Shown here piece by piece: positions 30,613 through 58,418 of a stretch of DNA of 64,000 bases. A model generated the notes under the pieces. That model saw only the letters and a list, made by a program, of their open reading frames with translations. It ran no database searches and was not told the DNA's origin. The position numbers were made by a program, and so were the translations under genes. Origin of the DNA: Streptomyces hygroscopicus. Lineage in GTDB: Bacteria; Actinomycetota; Actinomycetes; Streptomycetales; Streptomycetaceae. The stretch's first letter is position 1. Each line of letters starts with the position of its first letter. Location of the stretch: positions 372,001 to 436,000 of the forward strand of contig CP018627.1 in the NCBI GenBank assembly GCA_002021875.1, written 5' to 3'.

Positions 30613-31686
30613 ATGAGCCTGGAATTTCTCTGGTACATCCCCAACACCGTCGAACCGGGCCACCGTGGCGACGACACGACATCCGGCTGGGGGTCCATCG
30701 AGTACTCGACCGACCTTGCCCGTACGGCAGAAGAGCACGGTTGGGGCGGCGCGCTGCTCGGCACCGGATGGGGACGCCCGGACACCTTCACCGTCGCCAC
30801 CACCCTGGCCGCTCGGACCACGACGTTCAAGCCCCTGATCGCGATCCGTCCCGGCTACTGGCACCCGGCGAACTTCGCGAGTGCGGCGGCCACTCTCGAC
30901 CAGCTCAGCCGGGGACGCGTCCTCGTCAACATCGTCAGCGGACTGGACAACCCGGCCGCGTACGGCGACACCAACGTCGAACCCCCACAACGGTACGCCC
31001 GCACCCAGGAGTTCCTGCATCTCCTGCGGCGCCTGTGGACCGAGGAGGACGTCACCTTCCACGGCGAGCACTTCCAGGTCACCGGCTCAACGGTGGCGCC
31101 ACGCCCATACCCCACCGGCGCGAGGACGCATCCGACGCTCTACTTCGGCGGCGCGTCCCCGGCCGCCGAACGGGTGTCGGCGGCCGAGGCCGATGTCCAG
31201 CTCTTCTGGGGTGAACCACTCGACGGGATCGCCGAACGCGTCGACCGGCTCAAGGCCCTGAGCCGACGGGTGGGCCGACGGCGCAAGCCGTTGGAGTTCG
31301 GGCTGCGGATCACGACGCTGGTGCGCGACACTGCCGACGAAGCATGGAGTGCGGCCGAGGAGAAGGTCGCGAAGATGGCGTCCGGTGCCGGCGAGACCGT
31401 GTGGACGGGGAATCGCAGGACGGCGGTCGGACAGCGGCGGCTCCTCGATCTCGCCCAGCGCGGAGAGGTTCTCGACACCTGCCTGTACACCACCCCGGGC
31501 AAGTTCGGCGGTGGCGGAGCGGGGACCACCTGGCTGGTGGGCTCCGCCGACGACGTGGCCCGGGCGCTGCACGGCTACCGCAAGCTCGGCATCACCCACT
31601 TCGTCCTGTCCGACACCCCCTATCAGCGGGAGATCAGCCGGATCGGTGATCAACTGCTGCCCCTGCTGCGTGATTCCGCCCCGTGA
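30613..31686 (+). CDS. LLM-class flavin monooxygenase, SsuD-like
   Basis: 357 residues of the luciferase-like barrel, close to alkanesulfonate monooxygenase SsuD. Landmarks are EFLWYIPNT, the HGWGGALLGTGWGRPDTFTVA segment, PLIAIRPGYWHPANFASAAATLDQLSRGRVLVNIVSG (about 77-113) and the late GTTWLVGSADDVARALHGYRKLG. Such enzymes use reduced flavin and oxygen to release sulfite and an aldehyde from alkanesulfonates. The ATG at 30613 fits the family start. It is convergent with the LLM operon ending at 31742. No flavin reductase is adjacent. Confidence 0.85.
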   Translation: MSLEFLWYIPNTVEPGHRGDDTTSGWGSIEYSTDLARTAEEHGWGGALLGTGWGRPDTFTVATTLAARTTTFKPLIAIRPGYWHPANFASAAATLDQLSRGRVLVNIVSGLDNPAAYGDTNVEPPQRYARTQEFLHLLRRLWTEEDVTFHGEHFQVTGSTVAPRPYPTGARTHPTLYFGGASPAAERVSAAEADVQLFWGEPLDGIAERVDRLKALSRRVGRRRKPLEFGLRITTLVRDTADEAWSAAEEKVAKMASGAGETVWTGNRRTAVGQRRLLDLAQRGEVLDTCLYTTPGKFGGGGAGTTWLVGSADDVARALHGYRKLGITHFVLSDTPYQREISRIGDQLLPLLRDSAP

Positions 31687-31741
31687 CCGGCCTTTCTCCC
31701 CGTGCGGATCGTGGCTGACCTACGGCCCCCGCCTCTTCGGC

Positions 31742-32869
31742 TCAGCGGCGTTGCCATTCCTCTGCGAGCAGTTCGTAGGAGCGCACCCGGTCGGCGTGGC
31801 GGTGGGTGATGGTGGTGATGAGCAACTCGTCCGCGCCGGTGGCTTCCTGGAGTTGTTCGAGCTGGTCGGCGACGCGCGCGGGTGAGCCGACGAACTGGGT
31901 GTCCACGCGGTCGGCGACCAGCTCCCCGTCCGCGTCGGTCCAGAGGTGGGCGCGGGCCTGTTCGGGGGTGGGGAAGGGAATGGCGCCCTCGGCGGTGCGG
32001 ATGCTGCGGACCCACAACCCGTAGCCGGTGGCGCGGTCGCGGGCGGTCGCGTCGTCCTCGGCGACCACGACATCGGCGGAGACGCTGACGTACGGCTTGT
32101 CGAGCACGTCGGATGGCTGGAACGCGGCGCGGTACGCCTCGGTGGCCTCCAGGACGGTGGCCGGGCTGACGTGGTAGTTGGCGGCGAAGCGCAGACCGCC
32201 CCGGCCCGCGACCTGGGCGCTCTGCCCGCCGCTGCTGCCGAGGATCCACACCTGCACCTCGGCGCCTTCGCCGGGGATGGCGTGTGCTTCGACGCCGTCG
32301 GCGGAGCGGTAGTCGCCGCGCAGGAGCGCGAGGATGTCATCGATCTGCTCGCCGTAGTCCTGCGCTTCCGCGCCCGGCTGCTGGAGGAGTCGCCGCTGGA
32401 GTGCGACACGTGGCGACCCGAGTAGTCGTTGGAAGGAGAACTTGGGCGGGATGCGCAGGCCGTTCGGGGTGCGTCCGTCGATGACGGGTGTCGTGGTGGG
32501 CGGTGCGTCGTCGGTGCGCTCGGTGGGGCGTCCGCCGGAGCGGCCGAGTCCGAGGTCGAGCCGTCCGGGGTGCAGGGCGTCGATCAGGCCGAACTCCTCG
32601 ACGGTGGACAGGGCGGTGCGGTGACCGAGCTGTACGGCACCGGAGCCGAGGCGGATCGTGGAGGTGGCGGAGGCGGTCAGGGCCAGGACGACGGCGGGCG
32701 AGGTCCCGGCCACGCCCGGGTTGAGGTGGTGTTCGGCGAACCAGTAGCGCGCGTAGCCGAACCGCTCCGCCTGCTGGGCGAGGTCGATGCTGTTGCGCAG
32801 TGCCTCGGCGGCGGTGGAGCCGGCGGAGATGGGCACGAGGTCGAGGACGGCGAGGGGGATGCCGGACAC
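31742..32869 (-). CDS. LLM-class flavin oxidoreductase, MsnO8 type
   Basis: 375 residues. [48 protein letters not shown] and [37 protein letters not shown] are the hallmarks of the MsnO8 subfamily of luciferase-like oxidoreductases. The GTG at 32869 follows GAGGAG. It is the last gene of a four-gene minus-strand operon made only of LLM enzymes, 14 bases after the previous one. Substrate unknown; the neighbours suggest an organosulfur compound. Confidence 0.85.
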
Positions 32870-32883
32870 GGTCGGAGTACTCC

Positions 32884-33975
32884 TCAGCGGTCGGCGGACG
32901 GGGTGACGGGTTCGGGTGTGCCGAGCACCGGGGCCCAGTCGAAGGGCGGGTCCGGGATGTCACGTCGCAGTACGGGCGCGATGTCGGACTGGAAGAGCTC
33001 GAGCGAGGCGCGGTGCTGGACGTCGGTGAGCCCTCCCGCGTCCGCGTGCAGGTGCAGCACGGTGTGTCCGAACTCCTCGTGGTAGCGGTGCACCTTCTCG
33101 ATGACCTGCTGGGGGCTGCCGATCAGGGCCGAGCTGCGCTCGACGAAGTCCTCCAGGGTCGGGAACACCGGTTCGAGGCCGAGCTGCTTCTGGAAGGCGA
33201 GATGGCCTTCGAACACCGGCCGGTAGGCGGCGATGGCCTCCTGCGAGGTGCGGGCCGCGTAGTAGCCCGCTGTCCCGGCGCCGACCACGGCGCGGGCGGG
33301 GTCGTGGCCGTATGCCTCCCAGCGCTCCCGGTAGTGGCGGATCAGTTCGGCGTACGGCTCGATGGGGTGGGTGACGTTGGCGGAGAACAGCGGGTCGCCG
33401 TAGCGGGCGGCGAGGTCGACCGACTCCCGGCTGGTGGCGCTGCCGTGCCAGACCCGGATGGGCCGCTGGAGGGGCCTCGGCCACACCTCCGCGTCGGTCA
33501 GCGCGGGCCGGAAGCGCGGTGAGGCGGTCACCTTGTCCTGCCGCCAGATGCGGCGGAACAGCTCGTAGCCTTCGGCGTTGCGGTCCCACTGGTCCTCGGG
33601 GGTGACGTGGAACAGCTCGCGCTGGGCGGTGCCGTTGCCCTTGCCGATGATCAGCTCGAGGCGGCCGGCGGAGAGGTGGTCCAGGGTGGCGTAGTCCTCG
33701 TAGGCGCGCACCGGGTCGAGCAGACTGAGGGTGGTGACCGCGGTGAACAGCCGGATCCGGGAGGTGAGTGCGGCGAGGTGGCTGAGCACGACCGGTGGTG
33801 AGGAGGAGATGAACGGCCGCTCGTGGCGTTCACCGACGCCGAAGCCGTCGAAGCCGAGCTCCTCCGCCAGCAGGGCGTTGTCGATCACCTCGCGGAAGCG
33901 GTCACCGGTCGGCTTCTGTATCCCGGTCACCGGGTCCGGGGCGTGCACGATGAGGGTGATGGCCAGGAACTTCAT
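32884..33975 (-). CDS. LLM-class flavin-dependent oxidoreductase
   Basis: 363 residues. [18 protein letters not shown], then [74 protein letters not shown] gives the standard luciferase-like barrel with the ERH and SPP motifs. It overlaps the upstream LLM gene by 4 bases (33972-33975), so the two are translationally coupled. Subfamily not resolved. Confidence 0.85.
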
Positions 33976-35348
33976 GACGCGGCCCGTTCCTGGTGCGCCC
34001 CGGTGCCGGGGTGGGCCAGGCCGAGGTGGTCGCGCAGGGTCGCGCCCTCGTACTCGGTGCGGAACACGCCGCGCTCCTGCAGCAGCGGGACGACGGTGTC
34101 GGCGAAGGCGTCCAGGCCGCCGGGGGTGATGTGCGGGACGAGGATGAAGCCGTCGCCGGCATCGGCCTGGACGAAGGAGTTGATGGTCTCGGCGACCGTG
34201 GCCGGGGAGCCGATGAACGACTGGCGGTTGCCGGTCTCGATGACCAGGTCACGGATGGACCACTTGTTCGCCTCCGCCAGCTCCCGCCACTCCCGGGCGA
34301 CGGCCAGCGGATCGCGGTACATCCGCACCTGGGCACGGCCACGGGCGATGGTGTGCTCGCCGGGGTCGGGGTCGATGTCCGGGAGCGGGCCGTCCGGGTC
34401 GTACGCGGACAGATCACGGTTCCAGACGAACTCCAGGTGTTTGATCGCGGTGGCGCCGCTGACCTGTTGGCGGCGTACGTCCCGGGCCAGCTCCTGGGCC
34501 TCGGCGTCGGTGTCCCCGAGAACGAAGGTGGCCGCGGGCAGGATCAGCAGCTGGTCGTGGGTGCGGCCGTGGCGGGCGAGGCGGCCTTTGACGTCCGTGT
34601 AGAACGCCTGCCCCTCCTTGAGAGTGCTGTACCGGCTGAAGATGGCGTCGGCGCCGGCCGCGGCGAACTCCCGGCCCTCTTCGGAGTCACCGGCCTGGAA
34701 GATCACCGGGCGGCCCTGCGGGCTGCGCGGGACATTGAACTGTCCGGCGATGTCGAAGTGCTGTCCCTGGTGGGCGAAGGCACCGGCCCGCGCGTCGTTG
34801 AGGAAAGTGCCGGATGCCTGGTCGGCGACGATCTCGTCACCACGCCAGGAGTCGAACAGTTCGGTGGCGGTGGCCAGGAACTCCTTGGCCCTGGAGTACC
34901 GCTGGTCCTGCGGGAGGAAGCCGCCACGGCGGAAGTTCTCCCCGGTGAAGGCGTCCCAGGAGGTGACGACATTCCACGCGGCGCGCCCGCCCGACAGATG
35001 GTCCAGGCTGGCGAACTGGCGGGCCACTTCGTAGGGCTCGTTGAAGGTGGAGTTGATGGTGCCGGTGAGGCCAAGGCGGTCGGTGACGGCGGCGAGCGCC
35101 GTGAGGATGGTGAAGGTGTCCGGCCGCCCCACCACGTCCAAGTCATAGATTTTGCCGCCCTGTTCACGCAGCCGAAGCCCTTCGGCGAGGAACAGGAAGT
35201 CGAACTTGGCACGCTCGGCGGTCCGCGCGAAGTGTGCGAACGAGCTGAACTCGATATGGCTGCCCGCCTCCGGATCACTCCACACCGTGGTGTTGTTGAC
35301 ACCGGGGAAGTGGGCCGCCAGGTGGATCTGCTTGAGCGGTGCGCTCAT
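33972..35348 (-). CDS. NtaA/SnaA/DszA-family flavin monooxygenase
   Basis: 458 residues, the longer class of LLM enzymes. Features are LKQIHLAAHFPGVNNTTVWSDP, FDFLFLAEGLRLRE, GTINSTFNEPYEVARQFASLDHLSGGRAAWNVVTSWD (about 96-130), RSPQGRPVIFQAGDSEEGREFAAAGADAIFS, and HITPGGLDAFADTVVPLLQERGVFRTEY at the end. Members oxidise nitrilotriacetate, dibenzothiophene sulfone, dimethyl sulfide or S-alkylcysteine derivatives with reduced FMN from a separate reductase. It sits second in the operon, 20 bases after the upstream LLM gene. Confidence 0.87.
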   Translation of the reverse strand: MSAPLKQIHLAAHFPGVNNTTVWSDPEAGSHIEFSSFAHFARTAERAKFDFLFLAEGLRLREQGGKIYDLDVVGRPDTFTILTALAAVTDRLGLTGTINSTFNEPYEVARQFASLDHLSGGRAAWNVVTSWDAFTGENFRRGGFLPQDQRYSRAKEFLATATELFDSWRGDEIVADQASGTFLNDARAGAFAHQGQHFDIAGQFNVPRSPQGRPVIFQAGDSEEGREFAAAGADAIFSRYSTLKEGQAFYTDVKGRLARHGRTHDQLLILPAATFVLGDTDAEAQELARDVRRQQVSGATAIKHLEFVWNRDLSAYDPDGPLPDIDPDPGEHTIARGRAQVRMYRDPLAVAREWRELAEANKWSIRDLVIETGNRQSFIGSPATVAETINSFVQADAGDGFILVPHITPGGLDAFADTVVPLLQERGVFRTEYEGATLRDHLGLAHPGTGAHQERAAS

Positions 35349-35368: not shown

Positions 35369-36601
35369 TCAGACGGTGGCGTAGCGATTGGCGGGCCGGG
35401 CGAGGCCCAGCAGCCCGCGCAGGGTGTCGGCCTCGTAGGACCGGCGGAAGGCGCCCCGGCGCTGGAGTTCGGGCACCAGACCGCGGGTGATCGCCTCGAG
35501 GTCGTGGCCGATCACACCGGGGCGCAGCCGGAACCCCGACAGTCCGGTCCGCTGCCAGGTCAGCAGCAGATCAGCGAGCTGTGCGGGGGTCCCGCTGAAC
35601 ACCTTGGCGTCGCTGGTGTACGGGTGGCCCGCGAGGGCGTCCAGGCGCTCCAGCCGGGCGGCCGCGGCACCCGGTTCGTCGTCGAGGAAGACCACCAGGT
35701 CGCCGAAGAGGTGCACGGGCTCCGCCGCGCGGCCCGCCGCGGCCTGGGCGGCGCGGATCTCGGCGATGACGGTGCGGGCCTGGTCCGTGTCGTGCGGGGT
35801 GATGTAGCCGATGTCGGTGGAGGTTGCCACCAGCCGGTAGGGCACGCTCTGATGGGCCAGTGCGCTGACGACCGGCTGTCCTTGAGGTGGCCTGGGCGTG
35901 ATCGAGGGGCCCTTGACGCTGAAGTGCCTGCCCTCGAAGTCGATGTAGTGCAGCTTGTCGCGGTCGATGAAGCGTCCGGTGGCGACGTCCCGGACCTCGG
36001 CGTCGTCCTCCCAGCTGTCCCAGAGGCGGCGTACCACCTCGATGTAGTCGGCGGCCTCCTCGAAGAGCTCGGCGGTCAGCTCCCGGACCACCGGGGTGTC
36101 CAGATCCTCGGGGCCGAAGCGCGGAAGGGTGCGGCGGCCGAAGTGCTCCGCCTCGTGGCGCCGCCTGGACACCCGGAGCCGCAGCCCCGCGCGGCCGGTG
36201 CTGACGTAGTCCAGGGTGGCGATCGCCTTGGAGATGTGGAACGGCTCGGTGTGGGTGGCGACAGCGGTCGGCACCAGCCCGATGTGCCGGGTCACCGGTG
36301 CGACCCGGGAGGCGATGAGCACCGCGTCCAGCCGCCCGCGCACCTGGTCGGTACGGCCGTCGGGCTCGGTGCGGTGCGAGGACTGGAGCGAGAGCCCGTC
36401 CTCGAAGGTCACGAAGTCGAGCAGACCGCGTTCGGCCTCGGTGACGACATCGGTCCAGTACGCGGCGTCGAACAGCTCCCGGGGCCGGGCGTGCGGCTCG
36501 CGCCATGCGGCCGGGTGCCAGCCCGCCCCGTCGAGGGCGACGGCGAGATGCAGGGGTGTGGATGAGGACGTCGATGAGGACGTCGTTGAGGACTCGGACA
36601 C
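35369..36601 (-). CDS. LLM-class monooxygenase with a serine-rich N terminus, operon leader gene
   Basis: 410 residues from the GTG at 36601, preceded by GGGAGGC (36610-36616). After a serine/threonine tract (SSTTSSSTSSS, about 4-14) the luciferase-like domain begins, with LLDFVTFEDGLSLQS, GLVPTAVATHTEPFHISKAIATLDYVSTGRAGLRLRVS, and a C-terminal GVIGHDLEAITRGLVPELQRRGAFRRSYEADTLRGLLGL. It is first of the four-gene LLM operon and is preceded by a leader peptide and hairpins that may control it. The tract comes from short repeats in the DNA at 36555-36590. An upstream ATG at 36637 is less likely. Confidence 0.83.
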   Translation of the reverse strand: MSESSTTSSSTSSSTPLHLAVALDGAGWHPAAWREPHARPRELFDAAYWTDVVTEAERGLLDFVTFEDGLSLQSSHRTEPDGRTDQVRGRLDAVLIASRVAPVTRHIGLVPTAVATHTEPFHISKAIATLDYVSTGRAGLRLRVSRRRHEAEHFGRRTLPRFGPEDLDTPVVRELTAELFEEAADYIEVVRRLWDSWEDDAEVRDVATGRFIDRDKLHYIDFEGRHFSVKGPSITPRPPQGQPVVSALAHQSVPYRLVATSTDIGYITPHDTDQARTVIAEIRAAQAAAGRAAEPVHLFGDLVVFLDDEPGAAAARLERLDALAGHPYTSDAKVFSGTPAQLADLLLTWQRTGLSGFRLRPGVIGHDLEAITRGLVPELQRRGAFRRSYEADTLRGLLGLARPANRYATV

Positions 36602-36679: not shown

Positions 36680-36802
36680 TCAGCGGCGACAGAGCGCGCC
36701 GGCCACGCGCAGCAGGTCGATGTGGTGCCGGGAGTACAGGCGGACGCCCTCGCGGAGGGCCGGAGCCGGCGTGGGCGGGCAGGTCATCGGCCGCGACACC
36801 AT
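36680..36802 (-). CDS. Short Cys-containing leader peptide upstream of the LLM operon
   Basis: About 40 residues, ending in LYSRHHIDLLRVAGALCRR. The pattern R-x-x-(V/I)-D-L-x-R...(A)LC at the very C terminus is the one carried by small putative leader peptides that precede sulfur-metabolism genes in streptomycetes. GGGAGG lies just before ATG 36802 and 5 bases before GTG 36799, either of which may be the start. Translation stalling at the cysteine codon (36689-36691) when cysteine is short is the likely sensing step, inferred from family position. Confidence 0.6.
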   Translation of the reverse strand: MVSRPMTCPPTPAPALREGVRLYSRHHIDLLRVAGALCRR

Positions 36803-36925: not shown

Positions 36926-38401
36926 CTATGTCATCCGACGAAAGTGTGGGACTCCCCGCGGCGTGGCGTCGTGGCCCGGCTCGAGGGGGTCGGGTGCGCC
37001 GTCGTCCGTTCGCCGGCCGCGCAGGGCGGATACCGCCAGCGCGACGGCCAGCACGCCCGCGCAGGTGAGGCTCGCGTGCCAGTAGGCCGACCTGTGGTGG
37101 GCGGTCCCCCGCGCCGCGGTGTGCAGATAGAGACCGGAGATGGCCGAGACACCCACGGCGGCCGCGATGCGCTGGGACATCTGCAGGACCCCTCCCGCCA
37201 CCCCGGCGGCCTCCCGCGGGGCATGGCGCAGCACCAGCGCCTGGTTCGGGGAGACGATCAGCCCGGAAGCGGCGCCCGCGCAGAACTGGGTCAGCGCGAG
37301 GATCACCGGCAGGCCGGAGGCCGGGGCGCGCAGCGCGGCGAGGCCGCTCGTCAGAAAGGAGCACGCGCCCAGAGCCAGTCCGAGCGTCACCGTGTGCCGA
37401 CCGAATCGCCGCACCATGCGCCACGCCAGTGCGGACGAGATGCCCATCGCCACCGCCGAGGGCAGGGTGACCACGGCGGCGGCCACGGCGGGCAGCCCGA
37501 GGCCGTCCTGCAGGAACATCGTGAGCACCAGTGATCCGGCGATCGAGGCACCGAACTGCGCCATCGCCACGGCCGTGCCCAGCGCGAACGGCGCGGACTC
37601 CGCGAGCGAGGGATGAAGCAGCGGGCGGCCGCCCGAGCGGATGAAGCGGCGCTGCCAGACCGGGATGAGTCCGGCCACGACGCAGCCGACGGCCGCCCAG
37701 GCCGCCACCGCCGCCCCGTTCGACGGGATCTGGATGAACGGCACCATCACCACCAGCGCCAGGGCCCCGACCAGGACGAGGCCGACCGGATCCAGGTCGG
37801 TGTGGCCGGCGTTCGGCCGGGGCGCGGGCAGATACCGTACGGCGAGCGCCAGCGTGGCCAGCCCGAAGGGGACGGTCAGCAGGAGAGTGAGCCGCCAGCC
37901 GAGGTCCGGCCCGGCGGCCGCGATCAGCGCCCCGCCCAGCGGCGGACCGAGCGCGGCCGCCACTCCGCTGGTCACCGCGTACAGGCCCAGGGCGCGGGCC
38001 CGGTCCTGGCCGCTGAACACGTCCTGGATGGTGCCGATCACCTGGGAGTTGACCAGGCCCGCCGCCGCGCCCTGGAGCAGTCGTGCCGCGATGACCACCG
38101 ACGGGTGGGTGGCGACGGCGGCCACCACACCGACCGCGGTGAACGTCGCGAGACCGGCGAGGAAGAGCGTCTTGCGCCCGTGTACATCGCCGAGGCGGCC
38201 ACCGGGTACGAGCGTGAGGCCGAAGGACAGGGAGTACCCGGCCACGATCCACTGCACTTCGGTGGGGCCCGCGTGCAGGGAGGCGCGCAGCGCGGGTATC
38301 GCGATGTTGAGAACCGAGTTGTCCAGCAGGGTGGTCGTTCCGGCGGCCATGCAGACGGCGATCACTCGGCGTCGGCCGGTGTCGAAGCGGGTGGCGGCCA
38401 T
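36926..38401 (-). CDS. MFS multidrug-type exporter (DHA2, 14 helices)
   Basis: 491 residues with about 14 membrane segments. It carries DHA2 hallmarks: LLDNSVLNIAIPALRASL near 25-42, WIVAGYSLSFGLTLVPGGRLGDVHGRKTLFLAG near 51-83 (motif A), and ALGPPLGGAL (motif C). It exports small molecules by proton antiport. It overlaps the upstream GNAT gene by ATGA and ends the long minus-strand operon. In this setting it could expel a toxic by-product of C-S cleavage, but the substrate is not evident. Confidence 0.85.
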   Translation of the reverse strand: MAATRFDTGRRRVIAVCMAAGTTTLLDNSVLNIAIPALRASLHAGPTEVQWIVAGYSLSFGLTLVPGGRLGDVHGRKTLFLAGLATFTAVGVVAAVATHPSVVIAARLLQGAAAGLVNSQVIGTIQDVFSGQDRARALGLYAVTSGVAAALGPPLGGALIAAAGPDLGWRLTLLLTVPFGLATLALAVRYLPAPRPNAGHTDLDPVGLVLVGALALVVMVPFIQIPSNGAAVAAWAAVGCVVAGLIPVWQRRFIRSGGRPLLHPSLAESAPFALGTAVAMAQFGASIAGSLVLTMFLQDGLGLPAVAAAVVTLPSAVAMGISSALAWRMVRRFGRHTVTLGLALGACSFLTSGLAALRAPASGLPVILALTQFCAGAASGLIVSPNQALVLRHAPREAAGVAGGVLQMSQRIAAAVGVSAISGLYLHTAARGTAHHRSAYWHASLTCAGVLAVALAVSALRGRRTDDGAPDPLEPGHDATPRGVPHFRRMT

Positions 38402-38916
38402 CAGGCCCGGCCCCGGCCGAGGTCATGGGAGAAGACGGCGGTCTTCACCGGTCTGTGCCGGTTCTCGCGCTCCTCGCGGGCGTACTGACGGACGAAGCCG
38501 AGCCGCTGGTAGACGCGCTGGGAGGCGACGTTGTCCCGGCCCGTGTCCAGGACCAGGGCGCGCATGCCCCAGGAGCGGGCGCGCTCGATGCCCTCGGCGA
38601 GGAGCGCACCGGCGGCTCCGCGACCACGGTGTTCGGGCAGGACGGCCAGCAGGCGCAGCTCCGCCTCGTCGGGCAGGGCGAGGCGGGCGTACGCGGTGCC
38701 GGGGCGCAGCAGGCTCGCGGTGCCGATCAGTGTGGCGCTCGGTTCGTGCACGGCCACCAGCAGATCTCCGGCGGCGGCGCGGCCGGGCGTGTCGCGCAGC
38801 AGGGCCAGCCGTTCGGGGCGGGGTGCGCTGTTGCGGCTGCGGAAGCCGTCGACGGTGAGAGCCGCGACCTGTTCGTGCTCCTGGGCGCGGGCGGTGCGGA
38901 TGCGGATACGGTTCAC
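38401..38916 (-). CDS. GNAT N-acetyltransferase (1)
   Basis: 171 residues with the acetyl-CoA loop LRLLAVLPEHRGRGAAGALLAEGIERARSWGMRALVLDT (motif R/Q-x-x-G-x-G/A) near 87-125 and a closing NVASQRVYQRLGFVRQY. The GTG start at 38916 overlaps the ATPase stop. It lies inside an operon for organosulfur uptake. Acetylation of an imported amino group before C-S cleavage, as SnaA does for S-(2-succino)cysteine in Bacillus, is a possible role but inferred. Confidence 0.82.
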   Translation of the reverse strand: MNRIRIRTARAQEHEQVAALTVDGFRSRNSAPRPERLALLRDTPGRAAAGDLLVAVHEPSATLIGTASLLRPGTAYARLALPDEAELRLLAVLPEHRGRGAAGALLAEGIERARSWGMRALVLDTGRDNVASQRVYQRLGFVRQYAREERENRHRPVKTAVFSHDLGRGRA

Positions 38917-47623: not shown

Positions 47624-47628
47624 TCACC
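47606..47628 (+). repeat. Hairpin with GGTGATCACC palindrome
   Basis: GATCAC (47611-47616) pairs with GTGATC (47620-47625) over ATG; the stem extends to GGT/ACC around one unpaired C. The palindrome GGTGATCACC (47619-47628) also occurs at 36629-36638 in front of the LLM operon, which suggests a shared control element, though ten-base matches can be chance. Confidence 0.4.
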
Positions 47629-47735
47629 AGTGCCGCCTGTTTCTCCCACTGACTCATTCCCGCTCGGGGCCGGCCCGTCTCCTTCCTTCGGCGCGCCCGC
47701 CCGCACCCTCCCCAGAGCGTCGAGGAGTACACACG

Positions 47736-49459: not shown

Positions 49460-49512
49460 GGCCACTGAGGCCGCCACGCCCCTAAACCTCCTCATCCCAT
49501 CGAGGAACACCC

Positions 49513-50418: not shown

Positions 50419-51779
50419 CCCTCTCGTCCGGCAGGCGACACCTGCACCTCAACGTCAACGTCTTCCAGTCCGGGATCTTCGCGGGTGCGTGGCGCGCCCC
50501 CGACGGCGACCCGCGCGCCGCCTTCTCCCTCGACCACTACATCACCACCGCCCGCATCGCCGAGGCCGCGAAACTCGACGCCGTCTTCCTCGCCGACACC
50601 CCCGTCCTCACCCCCGACATCGCCCACCGCCCCGAATATGCCCTGGAACCCACCGTGATCCTGGCCGGGATCGCGGCCCACACCAGCCGAATCGGCCTCA
50701 TCGCCACCGCCTCCACCAGCTACAACGAGCCCTACAACATCGCCCGCCGGTTCGCCGCGCTGGACCACCTCAGCCGGGGCCGTGCCGGGTTCAACGCGGT
50801 GACCACGGCCGGTCCCGCCGCCGCCCGCAACTTCGGTCTCGACCAGGCGCCCGCCCACCGCGACCGCTACCGGCGCGCCGCCGAGTTCGTCGGCGTCCTC
50901 GGCGCACTGTGGGACAGCTGGGACGACGACGCGCTCATCGGGGACCGCGCGCGCGGTGTGTTCGCCGACCCGGCCCGTATCCACGCCATCGACCACCGGG
51001 GCGAGTTCTTCCGCGTCCGGGGGCCGCTGAACACCCCGCGATCGCCGCAGGGCCGCCCCGTCCTCGTCCAGGCGGGCGGATCGCCCGACGGCATCGAGCT
51101 CGCCGCCGGGCACGCCGAGGCCGTCTTCAGCGCGGCCCAGACCCTCGACGAGGGCAAGACGTACTACCGGGCCGTCAAGTCCCGCGCCGCCGCGCTCGGC
51201 CGCGACCCCGACGGGATCGTGGTGCTGCCCGGCCTGTCGACGGTGGTCGCCGCCACCCGCGACGAGGCGCTGGAGCGGCTGAACAGCCTCCAGGACCTCA
51301 TCCCGCTCCGCTATGGCCTGGACCGGCTGGCCGCCCTCCTCGGCATCGACGCCGACGCCCTCGACCCGGACGCGGAGCTGCCGTGGGACCTCATCGGCCC
51401 CGCCGGGAACGTCCAGGGGCTGCAGACCTTCTTCACCGTCACCACCGGCCTCGCCCGGCGCGAGCGGCTGACCGCCCGGCAGTTGATCCGGCGGCTCGGC
51501 GGCGGACTCGGACACCGCGTCGTCGCGGGCGGCCCGGCCGATATCGCCGACACCATCGAGGAGTGGTTCATCTCAGGAGCGGCCGACGGCTTCAATCTGA
51601 TGCCCGACGTGCTCCCCAGCGGCCTCACGGCCTTCGCCGAACACGTCATCCCCGAGCTGCGCCGCCGGGGGCTGTTCCGGGACGAGTACGCGGGCGCCAC
51701 GCTGCGCGACCACTTCGGTCTGGCCCGGCCGCCGGTCGCCCGGCACACACCCGACACGGCGGAGGTTCTGGTCCGATGA
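50415..51779 (+). CDS. NtaA/SnaA/DszA-family flavin monooxygenase
   Basis: 454 residues: HLHLNVNVFQSGIFAGAWRAP at the start, LDAVFLADTPVLTPDIA, TASTSYNEPYNIARRFAALDHLSRGRAGFNAVTTAG (about 96-131), TPRSPQGRPVLVQAGGSPDGIELAAGHAEAVFS, and NLMPDVLPSGLTAFAEHVIPELRRRGLFRDEYAGATLRDHFGL at the end. The full-length class II LLM layout. It is coupled by ATGA to the MetQ-like gene and to the next monooxygenase. It probably cleaves a C-S bond of the compound imported by the MetNIQ-like system, using reduced FMN. Confidence 0.88.
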   Translation: MTLSSGRRHLHLNVNVFQSGIFAGAWRAPDGDPRAAFSLDHYITTARIAEAAKLDAVFLADTPVLTPDIAHRPEYALEPTVILAGIAAHTSRIGLIATASTSYNEPYNIARRFAALDHLSRGRAGFNAVTTAGPAAARNFGLDQAPAHRDRYRRAAEFVGVLGALWDSWDDDALIGDRARGVFADPARIHAIDHRGEFFRVRGPLNTPRSPQGRPVLVQAGGSPDGIELAAGHAEAVFSAAQTLDEGKTYYRAVKSRAAALGRDPDGIVVLPGLSTVVAATRDEALERLNSLQDLIPLRYGLDRLAALLGIDADALDPDAELPWDLIGPAGNVQGLQTFFTVTTGLARRERLTARQLIRRLGGGLGHRVVAGGPADIADTIEEWFISGAADGFNLMPDVLPSGLTAFAEHVIPELRRRGLFRDEYAGATLRDHFGLARPPVARHTPDTAEVLVR

Positions 51780-53122
51780 CACGCCGACTCAGTCTGCTGG
51801 TGAACATCACCGGCGTCGGAAACCACCCCGGGGCCTGGACCCTGCCCGGCCGGGCTCCGGACGCCTACGTCGACCCGGACCACCATCTGCGGGTGGCCCG
51901 TACCGCCGAGCGCGGCGCCCTCGACGGGGTGTTCCTGGCCGACATCCCCGCCCTCCACGGCGACATCGGCCAGGGCCCCGGGCAGGGCCTGGAACCCTCG
52001 ATGCTGCTGACCTACCTCGCGGCCGCCACCGAGCGCATCGGGGTCGTCTTCACCGGGTCCACCACCTTCAACGAGCCCTACAACCTCGCCCGCCGGGTCC
52101 TCTCGCTCGACCACGCCTCGCGGGGGCGCGCCGGATGGAACGCGGTCGCCACCTTCTTCCCCGGGGCGGCGCGGAACTTCGGTCTCGACACCGTGCCCGA
52201 CCCCGGCACCCGCTACCGCCGGGCGGAGGAGTTCATCGGCCTGGTGCACCGGCTGTGGGATTCCTGGGAGGACGGCGCACTCATCGCGGACACCGGTGGC
52301 GCGCGTTTCGCCGACCCCGGCCGGATTCACTCCGCGGACCACACCGGCGAGTTCTTCGACGTCGCGGGGCCGCTCAATGTGCCGCGCTCCCCGCAGGGCC
52401 GTCCCGTGACGGTGCAGGCCGGGGCCTCGCCACAGGGTGTGGCCCTCGCGGGACGCTTCGCCGAGGCCGTCTACACCCCGCTCCTCGACCACGAGGCGGC
52501 GCGCGACTACCGCGCCCGGCTCGCCGGACAGGCGCGGCGGTACGGACGTGACCTGTCCGGCATCCGGCTGCTGCCCGGCCTCACCCCGGTGATCGGCAGC
52601 ACGGAGGCGGAGGCCCGCGCGCGCTTCGCCGCACTGGAGGCGGGCGTACACCAGGACGCGCGGCAGCTCGCCCGGGTGGCCCGTACCCTCGGCCTCGACC
52701 CCGCCACCACGGACCCCGAAGCCCCGCTGACCGAGGCCCAGTTGTCGGGGCCACCGCCTGACCGGCTGCCCACCGGGTTCTTTCGCACCCATGCCGAGAT
52801 CGCCCGTCGTGAGGGACTGTCCCTGGCCGGGCTCGCCGCCCGCACCATCGGCGGCCACCGGTCGGTCGTCGGCACCCCCGAACGGATCGCGGACGACATC
52901 ACCGACTGGTGGTCGGCCGGTCTGGTGGACGGCTTCACCCTGCTGCCCGACGCACTGCCCGACGGGCTGGACACCTTCGTCGACCACGTCGTGCCGATCC
53001 TGCGGGAACGCGGTGTCTTCCGCCACGCTTACACGGGCACGACCCTCCGCGACCACCTGGGGCTCCCCGTACCGGCACCCTCATACGAGTCCTCCGATCG
53101 GAAAGGGGCCACGGCCCGATGA
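51776..53122 (+). CDS. NtaA/SnaA/DszA-family flavin monooxygenase
   Basis: 448 residues, a clear paralogue of the enzyme encoded just upstream: LSLLVNITGVGNHPGAWTLPG, LDGVFLADIPALHGD, TGSTTFNEPYNLARRVLSLDHASRGRAGWNAVATF, VPRSPQGRPVTVQAGASPQGVALAGRFAEAVYT, and TLLPDALPDGLDTFVDHVVPILRERGVFRHAYTGTTLRDHLGLP. Translationally coupled on both sides. Two adjacent relatives may take substrates of different size. Confidence 0.88.
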   Translation: MTRRLSLLVNITGVGNHPGAWTLPGRAPDAYVDPDHHLRVARTAERGALDGVFLADIPALHGDIGQGPGQGLEPSMLLTYLAAATERIGVVFTGSTTFNEPYNLARRVLSLDHASRGRAGWNAVATFFPGAARNFGLDTVPDPGTRYRRAEEFIGLVHRLWDSWEDGALIADTGGARFADPGRIHSADHTGEFFDVAGPLNVPRSPQGRPVTVQAGASPQGVALAGRFAEAVYTPLLDHEAARDYRARLAGQARRYGRDLSGIRLLPGLTPVIGSTEAEARARFAALEAGVHQDARQLARVARTLGLDPATTDPEAPLTEAQLSGPPPDRLPTGFFRTHAEIARREGLSLAGLAARTIGGHRSVVGTPERIADDITDWWSAGLVDGFTLLPDALPDGLDTFVDHVVPILRERGVFRHAYTGTTLRDHLGLPVPAPSYESSDRKGATAR

Positions 53123-54333
53123 ACACCACCACCGCCCCACGGACCGTCACGGTACGGGAAGTCCTCAACCGGGTACCGGAGTTGACCGCCTCGCTCTGCG
53201 TCGACACGGCGCGCCGCGAGGCCGAGCGGGAACTGCCGTACGGGTCCATGGACGCGGTGCGGACCAGTGCCATCGGATGTCTGCGGGTCCCGGCGGCGTA
53301 CGGCGGCCCGGGGGCGAGCCTCGTGGACGTCTTCCGGGCCGTCATCGACCTCGCGGAGGCCGACTCCAATGTGGCACAGGCGCTCCGCCCGCATTTCGGA
53401 TTCATCGAGAAGCTCATCAGCGACGGTGGGAAGGAAGACCGGCAGCGGTGGTTCGCCGCGGCGCTGGCGGGCGAACTCTTCGGCAACGCCACCGGGGAGA
53501 CCACCGCCAAGCACCCCGGCGACATCCACACCGCGCTGGTGCCCGACGGCGACCGCTACCGGCTGAGCGGCACGAAGTACTACAGCACCGGCAGCCTGTT
53601 CGCCGACTGGGTGGTCATCGCCGCGAAGAACCACCTCGACCAGCGCGTCCGCGTCGTACTCCCCCACGACCGCCCCGGGCTGCGGCTGATCGACGACTGG
53701 GACGGCATGGGCCAGCGCATGACGGCGAGCGGCACCACGGAGCTGGACGACGTGGAGGTGTTCCCGCATGAGGTCGTCGTGGACGAGGCCGTGGGAGTGC
53801 GCCGGACCCATCTCGGCGCGTACCACCAGCTCTTCCTCGCCGCCGTGGAGACCGGCATCGCCAAGAACGCGGTCCGCGACGCGATCGGCTACGCGCGCGA
53901 CCGGGCCCGCGCGGTCCGGCACAGCGGCGTCGACCGCGCGGTCCAGGACCCGTTCGTGCAGCACACCGTGGGCGAGATCGCGGCGCTCGGGTACGGGGCC
54001 GAGGCCACCGTGTTGCGCGCGGCCGCCGCCATCGACCGTGCCCTCGCCGGTCCCCGCGGCGAGGACGGCATCGCGGGCGGCGAACCGGCGCTCGCCGAGG
54101 CGGCCACCGAGGTGGCGCAGGCGCAGGTGGTCGCCGCCCAGGCGGCCCTGCGAGCCGCGGAGCGGCTGTACGACGTGGGCGGGGCCTCGGCCACCCGGCG
54201 CGAGTTCAACTTCGACCGCCACTGGCGCAACGCCCGCACCCTGGTCAGCCACAATCCGATCGCTCACAAGGCACGTGTGGTGGGCGACTACCTCCTCAAC
54301 GCCGAACCACCGCCGCTGACGGGGTTCTTCTGA
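53119..54333 (+). CDS. Acyl-CoA-dehydrogenase-fold monooxygenase, SfnB/DszC-like
   Basis: 404 residues. The acyl-CoA dehydrogenase fold is clear (LRVPAAYGGPGASLVDVFRAVIDLAEADSNVAQALRPHFGFIE near 54-97, YRLSGTKYYSTGSLFADWVVIAA near 140-162, the C-terminal RNARTLVSHNPIAHKARVVGDYLLNAEPPP). The catalytic glutamate of true dehydrogenases is not evident, and the RxxRxxxxHNP ending is typical of DszC and SfnB, flavin-dependent oxygenases of sulfur acquisition. Coupled by ATGA to two DszA-like genes, as in desulfurisation pathways. The start at 53119 follows GGAAAGGGG. Confidence 0.85.
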   Translation: MNTTTAPRTVTVREVLNRVPELTASLCVDTARREAERELPYGSMDAVRTSAIGCLRVPAAYGGPGASLVDVFRAVIDLAEADSNVAQALRPHFGFIEKLISDGGKEDRQRWFAAALAGELFGNATGETTAKHPGDIHTALVPDGDRYRLSGTKYYSTGSLFADWVVIAAKNHLDQRVRVVLPHDRPGLRLIDDWDGMGQRMTASGTTELDDVEVFPHEVVVDEAVGVRRTHLGAYHQLFLAAVETGIAKNAVRDAIGYARDRARAVRHSGVDRAVQDPFVQHTVGEIAALGYGAEATVLRAAAAIDRALAGPRGEDGIAGGEPALAEAATEVAQAQVVAAQAALRAAERLYDVGGASATRREFNFDRHWRNARTLVSHNPIAHKARVVGDYLLNAEPPPLTGFF

Positions 54334-54362
54334 CGATCTCCTCGGCGGGTGCCTTGCCCCCT

Positions 54363-54392
54363 GAACGTCCCGAAAGCGAACGTCCCGAAAGC
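54363..54392 (+). repeat. Tandem 15-base repeat before the aldo/keto reductase
   Basis: GAACGTCCCGAAAGC is present twice in tandem (54363-54377 and 54378-54392), just ahead of the reductase ribosome site (GAAGGAAG). It may reflect replication slippage; a role in translation control is possible but unsupported. Confidence 0.6.
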
Positions 54393-54411
54393 GAAGGAAG
54401 ACACCGAAGAG

Positions 54412-55458
<1,047 letters not shown>

Positions 55459-55567
55459 TCCCGCACACCGGTACCCGAGCGGACGCCGGAAAGCTCGCCG
55501 CCCCCGTTGCCCCGGCCCGACCGGTGGCGACGGGGGCGACTGTCGTGACCGGACCCGCTCGGCCCGG

Positions 55568-56341
55568 TCACGCCGTACCCGTCTCCACCCGCTCGATGGG
55601 CGGGTCCACGCCCAGCCGGGCGAGCAGTCGCTCGCGCAGCGCGGCGTACTCGGGACCGGCGGGTCGACGCGGTGCCGGAACGTCCACGGCGAGGTCGGCG
55701 GCGATCCGGCCCCCGTCCAGGACCACGACCCGGTCGGCGAGTGCGATCGCCTCGTCCACGTCGTGGGTGACCAGCAGCACGGCGGGACGGTGCCGCTCGT
55801 ACAGACGGGCCAGAAGAGTGTGCATACGGGTCCTGGTGAGCGCGTCGAGCGCGCCGAACGGCTCGTCCGCGAGGAGCAGTTCGGGCTCACGTACCAGGGA
55901 GCGGGCGAGCGAGACCCGTTGCTGCTCACCGCCTGACAGCTCCACCGGCCAGGCGTCCTCCCGTCCGGCCAGACCCACCTCGGCGAGCGCGGTGCGTGCC
56001 CGCTCCTCGGCGTCCGCGCCCGTGAGCCCCAGTGCGACATTGGCCAGCACCCGTTTCCACGGCAGCAGCCGGGCGTCCTGGAAGACCATCGACACATGGG
56101 CGGGCGCGCTCAGTACGCCTTCGCCGCCGGCGTCGTGGTCGACTCCGGCGAGCGCCCGCAGCACGGTGCTCTTGCCTGAGCCGCTGCGGCCGAGCATGGC
56201 CACGAACTCCCCGGCGCGCAGGCTCAGATCGAGCCCGTCCAGCACCTTGCGCGTGCCGAAGGCCCGTACGAGCCCCTCGATACGGACGGCCGCCCCGGCT
56301 TCCGGGGTGGTGACTATCAGCCCGCCAACGTGCGTCGCCAT
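55568..56341 (-). CDS. ssuB: SsuB-like aliphatic sulfonate ABC ATPase
   Basis: 257 residues. Walker A GRSGSGKST at 51-59, signature ELSGGEQQRVSLARSLVREPELLLADEPFGALDALTR near 134-170, then VTHDVDEAIALADRVVVLDGG. The length and the ADEPFGALDALTR ending are typical of SsuB/TauB. It follows the permease gene with a 25-base overlap. It powers import of sulfonates or sulfate esters. Confidence 0.85.
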   Translation of the reverse strand: MATHVGGLIVTTPEAGAAVRIEGLVRAFGTRKVLDGLDLSLRAGEFVAMLGRSGSGKSTVLRALAGVDHDAGGEGVLSAPAHVSMVFQDARLLPWKRVLANVALGLTGADAEERARTALAEVGLAGREDAWPVELSGGEQQRVSLARSLVREPELLLADEPFGALDALTRTRMHTLLARLYERHRPAVLLVTHDVDEAIALADRVVVLDGGRIAADLAVDVPAPRRPAGPEYAALRERLLARLGVDPPIERVETGTA

Positions 56342-57183
56342 GACAGGGCCCTCCTCTCCACGAGCCGTACCAGTCCGTCGGAGAGCAGCCCCAGAAGTCC
56401 GTAGACGACGAGACCGACGATGATGATGTCGGTCTGCCCGTACGTCCGGGCGAGGCCCATCATGTAGCCGATCCCGCTGGTGGCGTTGACCTGTTCGACG
56501 ACGGCCAGGGCCAGCCAGGCGGCGGTCACGGCGAAGCGCATCCCGAGGAGGAAGCCGGGCAGCGCGCCCGGCAGCACGATGTGCAGCAGGAAGCGCGGGC
56601 GGCTCAGCCCCAGCGTCTCGGCGAGTTCGACGTACCGGCTGTCGATGGTGCGCAGCGCGTTGTGGGTGTGGATGTAGACCGGGACGAGGGCACCGAGGGC
56701 GATCGTGATGACCTTCATGGACTCCCCGATGCCGAACCACAGGATCAGCAACGGGATGAGAGCGAGGGAGGGAATGCTTCGTTTGATCTGCACCGGGCCG
56801 TCGATCACCCCCTCGCCGAGCCTGCTGAGCCCCGCGATCAGCGCCAGCACGAGCCCGGCGGCCGTCCCGTACGCCAGTCCGGACAGGGCCCGCACGGCGG
56901 AGGTCCACACGTTGGACTGGAGCCTGCCGTCCGCGATGAGGTCACCGGCCGTGGTCACCACCGTCCAGGGGGCGGACAGGTTGCGCGCGTCGATGAGGCC
57001 GGTGGCCGATCCGGCCGACCAGACCGCGAGCAGCAGAACGGGGCCGATCGCCCTGCCGTACGGGATGGGCCGGCCGGGGCCGAGGCGGCGGCGCACCCGC
57101 CCGCGCCGGACGCTCCGGGGCGCCGGGGCGTCTTTCACCGTCGTGACGAGGGACAGCCGCTCGCCGGTGGTGTCCGTGCTCAT
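56317..57183 (-). CDS. ssuC: SsuC-like sulfonate ABC permease
   Basis: 288 residues, six membrane helices, after a basic tail (RRGRVRRRLGPGR). Typical SsuC/TauC parts are VIDGPVQIKRSIPSLALIPLLILWFGIGESMKVITIALGALVPVYIHTHNALRTIDSRYVELAETLGLSRPRFLLHIVLPGALPGFLLGMR (the ATPase-contact loop lies at its centre) and LAVVEQVNATSGIGYMM. The ATG at 57183 overlaps the binding-protein stop. Confidence 0.86.
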   Translation of the reverse strand: MSTDTTGERLSLVTTVKDAPAPRSVRRGRVRRRLGPGRPIPYGRAIGPVLLLAVWSAGSATGLIDARNLSAPWTVVTTAGDLIADGRLQSNVWTSAVRALSGLAYGTAAGLVLALIAGLSRLGEGVIDGPVQIKRSIPSLALIPLLILWFGIGESMKVITIALGALVPVYIHTHNALRTIDSRYVELAETLGLSRPRFLLHIVLPGALPGFLLGMRFAVTAAWLALAVVEQVNATSGIGYMMGLARTYGQTDIIIVGLVVYGLLGLLSDGLVRLVERRALSWRRTLAG

Positions 57184-58241
57184 CGCGGCTTCCCCGCTTC
57201 CGCGACCGCGTCGGCGGCAACAGACTCGTACCGGCGGTCGAAGAGGACTCCCGCGTCGAACTTCTCCTGGCCCGTCTCCTTCGCCAGCAGGTCGACGGTC
57301 TTCTGCTGGCGTGCGATGGCCGGCGTCCAGTCCGCCGGAATGTCCGGGTGGCCGGCCTGCTCGACCAGGTATGCCCCGTCCGTGCGAGTGAGACCCTGGT
57401 CCTTGACGTAATAGCCGTCGATCCACTGCCTGGGGTGCTGGTCGATCCAGACCTCCGACCGCGCCCAGAGTGTGATGAACTCCCGGATGGCCGCGGCCTT
57501 CTGCGGATCACTCACGGACTCGGTCGGCGCCCACAGATGCGCGGGATCGTCGCGCAGGCCGTGCCGGATGGTCTTCCCGCCGTCCTTGCCGTACTTCGCC
57601 GGATAGCGCTTGATGTTGACACCGCCGAGTGGCGCGACATCCACCTGACGGCTGCCGAGCGCGGTCGGATACACATCCCCGGTGCTTGGCAGCTCGACCA
57701 GGTGCACATCGTGCTTGGTGAGCCCCGCCTTGGCCAGGACGCGCAACACGAGCGCGCCCTGGGCCTGCCCCGGGCTGTAGGCGATCTTCTTGCCGCGCAG
57801 GTCCGCCAGGGTGTCGACGTCCGCGCCGGGAGCGATTCCGAGCTCGTAGACGGGGTGCTGCAACGGGTCCTTGCGGAATTCCGCCGCCACGAGCTTTGTA
57901 TCGAGACCGGTCCAGTGGGCGTGTATCGACGGGATCTCCGCCGACGAGCACAGATCGAGGGAATGCGCACGGAAGGCCTCCGAGCACTGCGGACCGCCGC
58001 TGATATTGGCCCACTTGACCTTGAAGGGCAGCTTGTCGATCTGCCCCGAGAGCTTCAGTGCCACCTGCGTGTCCGGCGCACCGACCGTAATCGACGTATT
58101 CGCCCTCACCTTCTCCGGAATCTTGATATGGGCGAGGTTCTTACTTTCGGCGGTGGTCGATGAGGTGGTGTTCTCGGCGCAGCCGACCAGCAATGAGGCG
58201 CAGGTCAGAGCGGTCAGGATGAGCGGGGCGTGCCTGGGCAT
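57180..58241 (-). CDS. ssuA: SsuA-like sulfonate-binding lipoprotein
   Basis: 353 residues. The lipobox SLLVGC places the lipid cysteine near residue 21 of the start at 58241. SsuA-type segments follow: NTSITVGAPDTQVALKLSGQIDKLPFKVKWANISGGPQCSEAFRAHSLDLC, DLRGKKIAYSPGQAQGALVLRVLAKAGL and QWIDGYYVKDQGLT. It captures a sulfonate or related ligand. It is the first gene of the ssu operon, about 100 bases after the stop codon of a 24-residue leader peptide. Confidence 0.86.
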   Translation of the reverse strand: MPRHAPLILTALTCASLLVGCAENTTSSTTAESKNLAHIKIPEKVRANTSITVGAPDTQVALKLSGQIDKLPFKVKWANISGGPQCSEAFRAHSLDLCSSAEIPSIHAHWTGLDTKLVAAEFRKDPLQHPVYELGIAPGADVDTLADLRGKKIAYSPGQAQGALVLRVLAKAGLTKHDVHLVELPSTGDVYPTALGSRQVDVAPLGGVNIKRYPAKYGKDGGKTIRHGLRDDPAHLWAPTESVSDPQKAAAIREFITLWARSEVWIDQHPRQWIDGYYVKDQGLTRTDGAYLVEQAGHPDIPADWTPAIARQQKTVDLLAKETGQEKFDAGVLFDRRYESVAADAVAEAGKPR

Positions 58242-58261
58242 ACGGGTTCCCGGGTGCAGGG

Positions 58262-58282
58262 CGTACGGCATCGGCGCGTACG
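58262..58282 (-). repeat. Stem-loop between leader peptide and ssuA
   Basis: CGTACG at 58262-58267 and 58277-58282 can pair over a 9-base loop in the ssuA leader RNA. A second small stem, CGGG-AA-CCCG, overlaps the ribosome site region right before the ssuA ATG. These could take part in leader-peptide control. Confidence 0.35.
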
Positions 58283-58343
58283 GAAGTCAATTGATGTCGC
58301 GGGGCGGAATTCGTCGCGAGTGAGGCGTGTTCGCTGCTGGAGT

Positions 58344-58418
58344 TCAGCTACACAGCGCGACGGTGAGGCGCATCAGATCGACAGGGCGCCGCTGCGTGAA
58401 CCGCGAAGAGGTCGGCAT
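58344..58418 (-). CDS. 24-residue Cys-containing leader peptide of the ssu operon
   Basis: From ATG 58418 to the stop at 58344 the peptide ends TQRRPVDLMRLTVALCS, matching R-x-x-V-D-L-x-R...ALC at the extreme C terminus, as in the leader at 36680. It is too short for ordinary gene finders. Its ATG lies 7 bases after a TAGCTT -10 box, so the transcript probably begins at the start codon and the peptide is leaderless. It stands directly in front of ssuABC. Ribosome pausing at the Cys codon near the end is the likely sensor of cysteine shortage. Confidence 0.68.
   Translation of the reverse strand: MPTSSRFTQRRPVDLMRLTVALCS

Follow-up and report, generated by a model that had tools for sequence, protein, structure and literature searches.

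A block of genes at 30.5–58.3 kb in a 64-kb stretch of the Streptomyces hygroscopicus genome (the window; contig CP018627.1, positions 372,001 to 436,000) is very probably a group of cysteine-attenuated cassettes for organosulfur scavenging, consisting of four sulfur-starvation transcription units and a single SsuD-like gene, assembled in few Streptomyces. Using gene finding by third-codon-position GC score (GC3) and hmmscan family scans, we recognised in the block seven luciferase-like monooxygenases (LLMs), an SfnB/DszC-like enzyme, three ABC importers, two GNAT acetyltransferases, an aminotransferase (AT), a GlcD-like oxidase, an aldo/keto reductase (AKR) and an MFS transporter (Table 1). 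A first-pass annotation of this DNA had placed these genes in four or five operons and read them as one scavenging island. Each gene it named is indeed an intact open frame, at the place it gave or beside it. The sulfur reading is strengthened by two features that it had not described and that are independent of gene names: cysteine-ending leaders ahead of the operons, and a depletion of Cys and Met in the encoded proteins. The idea of a single unit, however, gives way to four separately led multigene operons and the solitary, leaderless LLM1.

Unit (i), on the minus strand (47194–36926), comprises in order the GlcD-like, AT, GNAT2, DppA, DppB, DppC, DppDF, GNAT1 and MFS genes. Unit (ii), also minus (36601–31742), comprises LLM5, LLM4, LLM3 and LLM2; unit (iii), plus (47736–55458), MetN, MetI, MetQ, LLM6, LLM7, the SfnB-like gene and AKR; and unit (iv), minus (58241–55568), SsuA, SsuC and SsuB. 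The gene overlaps fit operons. Among 59 matches to PF00296 in the whole genome (12.0 Mb), nine start within the 30 kb from LLM1 on (eight spans of the seven block LLMs and one fragment near 60.0–60.7 kb), as against three in the densest other 30 kb; this crowding, rightly called unusual before, is not chance.

Leader ORFs and their conservation

Each multigene unit is preceded, on its own strand, by a short open reading frame (ORF) with 0–3 codons between its last Cys codon and the stop (leaders a–d). The leaders share a core of [VI]-D, preceded by an Arg/His-rich stretch and followed by [SA]-x-C or similar. Leader d scores 30.9–31.2 bits (30.9 for the 40-aa form) against NCBIfam NF042934, over the cut-off of 27. 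Leader c has sub-threshold matches to NF042934 (18.5 bits) and NF042933, leader a reaches 21.0 bits with NF042936, below the cut-off of 45, and leader b has no NCBIfam match. A search of the whole genome with NF042934 returned 19 matches at E up to 10, six of them over the cut-off; we kept 13 as leader-like, including leaders c and d, and judged six not to be (L013, L014, L015, L017, L018 and L019). The 11 leaders outside the window alone served to train a position weight matrix (PWM). The units behind them include ThiS with a pyridoxal-phosphate enzyme (CysO–CysM-like), cysteine dioxygenase, sulfite/nitrite reductase and rhodanese, and further two ABC permeases, an SDF symporter, a glutathione S-transferase, an LLM, an SBP5 binding protein and an acyl-CoA-dehydrogenase-type enzyme. 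Four of these 11 units carry plain sulfur genes, two more are likely sulfur units, and the rest are ambiguous. Over all frames of the window, the PWM ranks leaders d, a, c and b first to fourth, the fifth match (16.5) lacking the short end; in 400 kb of spaced sequence from the same genome none reached 20 and one match scored 18.9.

The motif TTGAC stands exactly 37 nt before the ATG in 5 of 15 leaders and 36 nt before it in two more (7/15 at −37/−36), compared with 16 of 7480 for all ATGs in 400 kb, and its occurrence at a fixed distance in three of the four window leaders has p = 4e-8, the offset having been picked after inspection in both comparisons. In the accessible part of a study of S. 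lividans (PMC8079986), promoters carry a −10 element TAnnnT and a −35 element nTGACn, 17% of transcripts are leaderless, and a leader is recorded upstream of metNIQ. Given these promoter elements and this share of leaderless transcripts, leaders a–c probably start at or near +1 and would then be translated from leaderless mRNA. The ATG of leader d is preceded by a Shine–Dalgarno-like GGGAGG.

The cysteine-responsive leaders of mycobacteria and the NF042934 and NF042936 families resemble the window leaders in being short Cys-ending ORFs before sulfur operons; the promoter spacing of leaders a–c, if indeed of the leaderless type, would be a further likeness. They differ in that the window leaders end in one or two Cys codons rather than a polycysteine tract and that four of them stand on neighbouring operons, b without a family match and d apparently Shine–Dalgarno-led. 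The mycobacterial leaders are attributed to Canestrari 2020 in the accessible part of PMC13236596. Among titles and abstract openings on cysteine leaders in Streptomyces, none concerned organosulfur operons, an absence made weak by thin coverage of subscription journals.

We compared the leaders with those of four other loci of the clade: G095, G178 (S. himastatinicus-like), G350 and S. violaceusniger NBRC 13459 (L022). Leaders a and b are retained in all four, leader c in G095 (1/1, the sole other clade stretch in which this SsuABC was seen), and leader d in G095 and G350 (2/3). A conserved short Cys-ending ORF directly upstream on the same strand, which we take as the mark of a Cys-responsive attenuator, is thus found for each unit, leader d in G178 being the exception. 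The retained leaders have no frameshifts and their C-terminal Cys codons are invariant; the inner Cys of leader b is Ser in two of five sequences. Variable sites at codon positions 1/2/3 number 5/0/1 in leader a, 2/0/5 in b, 2/2/6 in d and 1/0/1 in c. No synonymous bias was seen in leader a across the clade sequences, its amino-acid changes being T/A, L/F, I/V and F/L.

The synteny comparison that had been suggested for this block finds it recurring in the clade, but with the LLM5–LLM2 unit of G178 (L180 232–4426) at the opposite side of the block, where it stands downstream of three further genes (one of them LLM1-like, 32%) and is headed by another leader, of score 36.4; the LLM cassette has therefore changed leaders. 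In G095 (L100–L101) the island is larger: extra leader-like ORFs lie to either side of the block, and SsuC/SsuB/SsuD-like genes form a second cassette. Because of these rearrangements in G178 and G095, the island looks assembled from movable led cassettes. Elsewhere in the S. hygroscopicus genome, a led cassette (L111 2549–12615) holds a rhodanese, an Ssu-type importer, an SsuD-like LLM, an acyl-CoA-dehydrogenase-type enzyme, a GlcD paralogue and an FMN reductase, mostly low in sulfur; a leader similar to that of L111, with SsuC/SsuB relatives, adjoins the island in G095. In G095 and L022, DppDF is separated from GNAT1 by an LLM4 paralogue (64–66% identical), with a partial match in G350; at the corresponding junction of the window (38913–38916) there is none, and DppDF and GNAT1 overlap.

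Cysteine and methionine depletion

Computed without the initiator Met, the 24 block proteins (8788 aa) contain 0.27% Cys and 0.65% Met (0.92% together), compared with 0.82% and 1.53% (2.35% together) in 239 background proteins of the same genome, and none of 20,000 random draws was as low in Cys+Met. Background and relative proteins were called by GC3 scoring, which is approximate, and frames with internal stops were excluded. Five block proteins lack both Cys and internal Met (Table 1), and LLM4, LLM6 and LLM7 have one such residue each. The same holds when LLMs are compared with LLMs: the seven block spans average 0.21% Cys+Met and the 43 others of the genome 2.02% (Mann–Whitney p = 1.8e-4; two spans under 150 aa excluded, leader-linked class set by hand). 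In Gordonia NB4-1Y, according to the accessible part of PMC7661421, oxygenases raised on three organosulfur sources contain 0.88–1.33% Cys+Met against 3.01% for the proteome. The block shares this low content in its oxygenases; it differs from that sulfur-sparing set in reaching mostly 0–1%, island-wide, and in extending to an aminotransferase and a binding protein.

A recurrent AT–GlcD–Dpp core and the LLM5–LLM4 pair

Parts of the island are rare within the genus. An orthologue of DppA (E up to 1e-150) occurs in 4 of 392 Streptomyces genomes, this one included; among 61 genomes the GlcD-like protein (E up to 1e-120) occurs in three and the SfnB-like protein (E up to 1e-100) in this one alone. 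Within the top 120 of 1257 DppA relatives, those that carry a name and lie outside the clade belong to proteobacteria (Burkholderiales, Pseudomonas, Rhizobiales and others) and share no more than 63% identity, which hints that the importer may have been acquired from outside. Against such an acquisition counts a Microbacterium locus (L059) with a similar importer (50–62%) beside an AT gene.

A scan for the aminotransferase kept 80 loci from 158 relatives, three of the clade and 77 of other actinobacteria. In 49 of these 77, at least four of AT, GlcD, DppA, DppB, DppC and DppDF occur together, and in 47 of the 49 the pooled Cys+Met of the core lies under that of unrelated neighbours (0.42 vs 1.89%). 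Of the 286 core proteins, 56 have neither Cys nor Met; the same is true of 11 among the 271 neighbours that are at least 200 aa long. At 17 loci (for example L077, L078 and L081–L084) AT stands without GlcD and Dpp in the examined stretch; its mean Cys+Met is 0.47% in these and 0.10% in core loci. Nearby genes at some loci encode flavin reductases, a nitroreductase, a GNAT or an M20 peptidase, the last being a deacetylase-type candidate in a Cellulomonas locus (L064). These neighbours would fit FMNH2-dependent oxygenation and an acetylate–oxygenate–deacetylate route like that of YxeL–YxeK–YxeP, as described in the accessible part of PMC9706529.

Eleven LLM5-like proteins were found in the 77 loci, nine of them encoded directly before an LLM4-like gene at gaps of −3 to 60 nt; the two that are not paired are poor matches (33–34%). 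Positions conserved in 13–14 of 14 LLM4/6/7-type proteins (including N126, N138, R150, Y151, Q218, G220, S222 and G225) are changed in 10 or 11 of the 11 LLM5 proteins; these we take to lie in the FMN site. The structural model of LLM5 (pLDDT 83.6) has the NtaA/BdsA/YtnJ fold. The pair thus shows what marks a LuxAB-type arrangement, adjacent LLM paralogues of which one has lost conserved residues, and LLM5 is perhaps a non-catalytic partner and LLM4 the catalytic member of a LuxAB-like heterodimer. Two different LLM chains occur in one PDB entry, 7e36 (streptoseomycin).

No LLM relative (E up to 1e-20) was found in the examined stretch at 33 of the 49 core loci. Because of this, the core may yield an assimilable amino acid without C–S cleavage, and on the same ground we infer a hydroxy acid as the substrate of GlcD and AT. 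It is possible, though we propose it tentatively and consider it doubtful, that the core and LLM5–LLM4 form an undescribed, widespread actinobacterial organosulfur pathway. In it, GlcD and AT would convert a sulfur-bearing 2-hydroxy acid (for example the hydroxy analogue of methionine, a mercaptolactate conjugate or sulfolactate) to an amino acid, and LLM5–LLM4 would be a LuxAB-like heterodimeric C–S monooxygenase in which LLM5 does not bind FMN; the clade island of nearly sulfur-free enzymes would join this pathway with other cysteine-attenuated cassettes. To our knowledge both the core and the pair are uncharacterised; no literature search was aimed at either. They are new leads in an island of known kinds of parts in unusual combination, and concrete targets for work on soil sulfur cycling and C–S bond chemistry.

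Alternatives, model and gene content

Several results weigh against cysteine-attenuated scavenging cassettes. Among 20 third-order Markov windows the top PWM score was 22.1, and because two of the 20 reached 19.3 or more, leader b is unconvincing on score alone. No leader scoring at least 20 was found in the 77 other actinobacterial loci, LLM1 has no leader, and in G178 leader d is absent before LLM5 and another leader heads the operon. In the mycobacterial attenuator model, stalling at Cys unmasks the downstream ribosome-binding site; in a simple folding test, a ribosome at the Cys codon did not lower the opening energy of this site for any of the four leaders, and its release by a stalled ribosome was thus not seen there. 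The depletion of Cys and Met does not extend to MetI, DppB, DppC or the MFS protein, DppA (0.93%) is no lower than the mean of 115 listed relatives outside the clade (0.95%), six leader-linked LLMs elsewhere in the genome take only a middle position (p = 0.08), and zero is also reached by three of the 43 other LLM spans, which have no known leader. In G095 GlcD matches in pieces only and LLM1 over one third of its length, so that parts of the island are dispensable. Nor did we recognise a deacetylase in the block.

A general redox or xenobiotic response, in which NtaA, EmoA and LadA relatives break down chelators, alkanes or antibiotics for a purpose other than gaining sulfur, would account for the best PDB match of LLM6, annotated as nitrilotriacetate monooxygenase, for the more distant EDTA and alkane monooxygenase relatives and for MarR/RrpB-type regulators on both flanks. 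It is nevertheless improbable: the block LLMs lie far below the other LLMs of the genome in Cys and Met, their leaders are of the kind that precedes sulfite/nitrite reductase, cysteine dioxygenase and rhodanese units, and SsuABC-, MetNIQ- and SfnB-like genes occur together. LLM, SfnB-like, GNAT, AT and MFS genes also serve as tailoring genes in natural-product clusters. LLM enzymes act in biosynthesis, as in streptoseomycin (7e36), and the block lies about 0.4 Mb from one end of the 12-Mb contig; yet with three nutrient-type importers, the leaders, the sulfur depletion and no polyketide synthase or nonribosomal peptide synthetase gene recognised among the block genes scanned, we consider such a cluster very unlikely. 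The least probable explanation is that low Cys+Met follows from high GC or from the folds and that the leaders arose as ORFs by chance. In its favour, certain homologous families of other actinobacteria have equal or lower contents, leader b taken singly is weak and three other LLM spans lack Cys and Met. Against it, both the background set and the LLM comparison set were drawn from this one genome, the core lies below its neighbours at 47 of 49 loci, the −35 element recurs at its fixed (if post hoc) distance in three of the four window leaders, and the leaders are retained in relatives.

Under the preferred reading of cysteine-attenuated scavenging cassettes, scarce cysteine would slow ribosomes at the Cys codons that end each leader and raise expression of the downstream operon, by attenuation of either transcription or translation. 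The SsuABC-like system would import sulfonates, the MetNIQ-like importer methionine-like or other S-amino acids, and the Dpp-like importer larger or peptide-like compounds. FMNH2-dependent monooxygenases of the NtaA/SnaA, MsnO8, CE1758 and SfnB/DszC kinds would cleave or oxidise C–S bonds, LLM5 and LLM4 probably as a pair. No flavin reductase was recognised among the block genes scanned; PF01613 has 12 matches elsewhere in the genome, and FMN reductases lie inside two other leader-led cassettes (L106 12502–13062 and L111 12058–12615). FMNH2 would come from reductases encoded elsewhere, such as these two. The two GNATs probably N-acetylate S-substituted cysteines ahead of oxygenation, as YxeL does before YxeK, and AT and the GlcD-like enzyme would interconvert 2-hydroxy, 2-oxo and amino acids of the sulfur substrate. 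The product would be cysteine or sulfite, and near-total loss of Cys and Met would let the enzymes operate during sulfur starvation. Leader ORFs and sulfur depletion together may serve as a sequence-only test for actinobacterial organosulfur-scavenging genes, by which labels like nitrilotriacetate monooxygenase or dipeptide importer become predictions open to test.

The nearest solved structures to LLM4 are YtnJ/CmoJ of B. subtilis, a pairwise likeness that leaves the ytm surroundings aside; YtnJ/CmoJ reportedly serve S-alkylcysteine use there. The B. subtilis yxe (scm) operon, according to the accessible part of PMC9706529, handles S-(2-succino)cysteine by a GNAT–LLM–deacetylase logic and is recognised by at least three of five components in one locus (monooxygenase, acetyltransferase, importer, deacetylase and YxeQ), meaning those very enzymes. 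The block has a monooxygenase, an acetyltransferase and an importer of the same kinds, the likeness to YxeK/L/MNO being one of kind. It differs from the operon, as far as that source describes it, in having no recognised deacetylase and in having four NtaA-type LLMs, AT, GlcD and a Dpp-type importer.

With the ssu, sfn and dsz systems the block shares an SsuABC-like importer, the SsuD-like LLM1 and an SfnB/DszC-like enzyme. The likeness behind the names SsuABC, MetNIQ and SfnB in the first-pass annotation holds, but the curated cut-offs for these and for SsuD are not reached: MetN/MetI/MetQ score 284/187/107 (cut-offs 499.7/212/374), SsuB/SsuC/SsuA 258/211/79 (395/347/163.5), and LLM1, which is like SsuD without qualifying as one, 234 (510, NF001939) and 233 (518.2, TIGR03565). 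Of the LLM positions in that annotation, 30613 is an internal start of LLM1, whose frame runs from 30466.

Table 1 Leaders and genes of the block (window coordinates; scores in bits).
Feature	Position	Strand	Remarks
Leader a, 23-codon ORF MASTLLVHRHHIDFGRVVSAQCC	47357..47428	-	before GlcD-AT-GNAT-Dpp operon; PWM rank 2 (28.9); TTGAC at -37
Leader b, 26-codon ORF MSRTLFCTRRRTVDHMVITSAACFSH	47572..47652	+	before MetNIQ-LLM6-LLM7-SfnB-AKR; PWM rank 4 (19.3); TTGAC at -37
Leader c, 24-codon ORF MPTSSRFTQRRPVDLMRLTVALCS	58344..58418	-	before SsuABC; PWM rank 3 (25.6); TTGAC at -37
Leader d, 40-codon ORF ending LYSRHHIDLLRVAGALCRR	36680..36802	-	before LLM5-LLM4-LLM3-LLM2; PWM rank 1 (34.1); no TTGAC
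LLM1, SsuD-like monooxygenase	30466..31686	+	PRK00719 234, cut-off 510; possible internal start 30613
LLM2, MsnO8-family LLM	31742..32869	-	TIGR03558 314, over cut-off 166.95; no Cys or internal Met
LLM3, CE1758-like LLM	32884..33975	-	TIGR04036 247, below cut-off 479; no Cys or internal Met
LLM4, NtaA/DmoA family	33972..35348	-	TIGR03860 426, over cut-off 279.7
LLM5, degenerate NtaA-type LLM	35369..36601 (or start 36637)	-	TIGR03860 265, below cut-off 279.7; no Cys or internal Met
MFS transporter, EmrB/DHA2 kind	36926..38401	-	family scan; not sulfur-depleted
GNAT1 N-acetyltransferase	38401..38916	-	PF00583
Dpp/Nik-type importer	38913..44042	-	DppDF 38913-40568, DppC 40607-41431, DppB 41428-42348, DppA 42408-44042
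GNAT2 N-acetyltransferase	44017..44451	-	PF00583
Aminotransferase (aminoadipate/kynurenine-type)	44565..45740	-	PF00155; nearest PDB alpha-aminoadipate aminotransferase; no Cys or internal Met
GlcD/D-lactate-dehydrogenase-like FAD enzyme	45818..47194	-	PF01565+PF02913
MetN-MetI-MetQ-like importer	47736..50418	+	family scan; MetQ no Cys or internal Met
LLM6, NtaA/DmoA family	50415..51779	+	TIGR03860 512, over cut-off 279.7
LLM7, NtaA/DmoA family	51776..53122	+	TIGR03860 442, over cut-off 279.7
SfnB/DszC-like flavin monooxygenase	53119..54333	+	TIGR04022 349, below cut-off 430.9
Aldo/keto reductase (AKR)	54349..55458	+	PF00248 265
SsuB-SsuC-SsuA-like sulfonate-type importer	55568..58241 (SsuA start 58241 or 58271)	-	family scan

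An Rfam scan of the window gave no family at gathering score, and hence no riboswitch match. The flanking MarR/RrpB-type regulators lie at 28043–28441 (plus) and 59160–59516 (minus) and score below curated cut-offs. A C-terminal piece of an F420-type LLM is found at 60104–60661 (plus), within the gene-poor 58.5–62 kb. Beside the block, at 29277–30338 (plus), lies an S8 subtilisin-type peptidase of 352 aa with no Cys and no internal Met, which has a counterpart of 94% identity near the block in G350 and could supply peptides to the Dpp importer.

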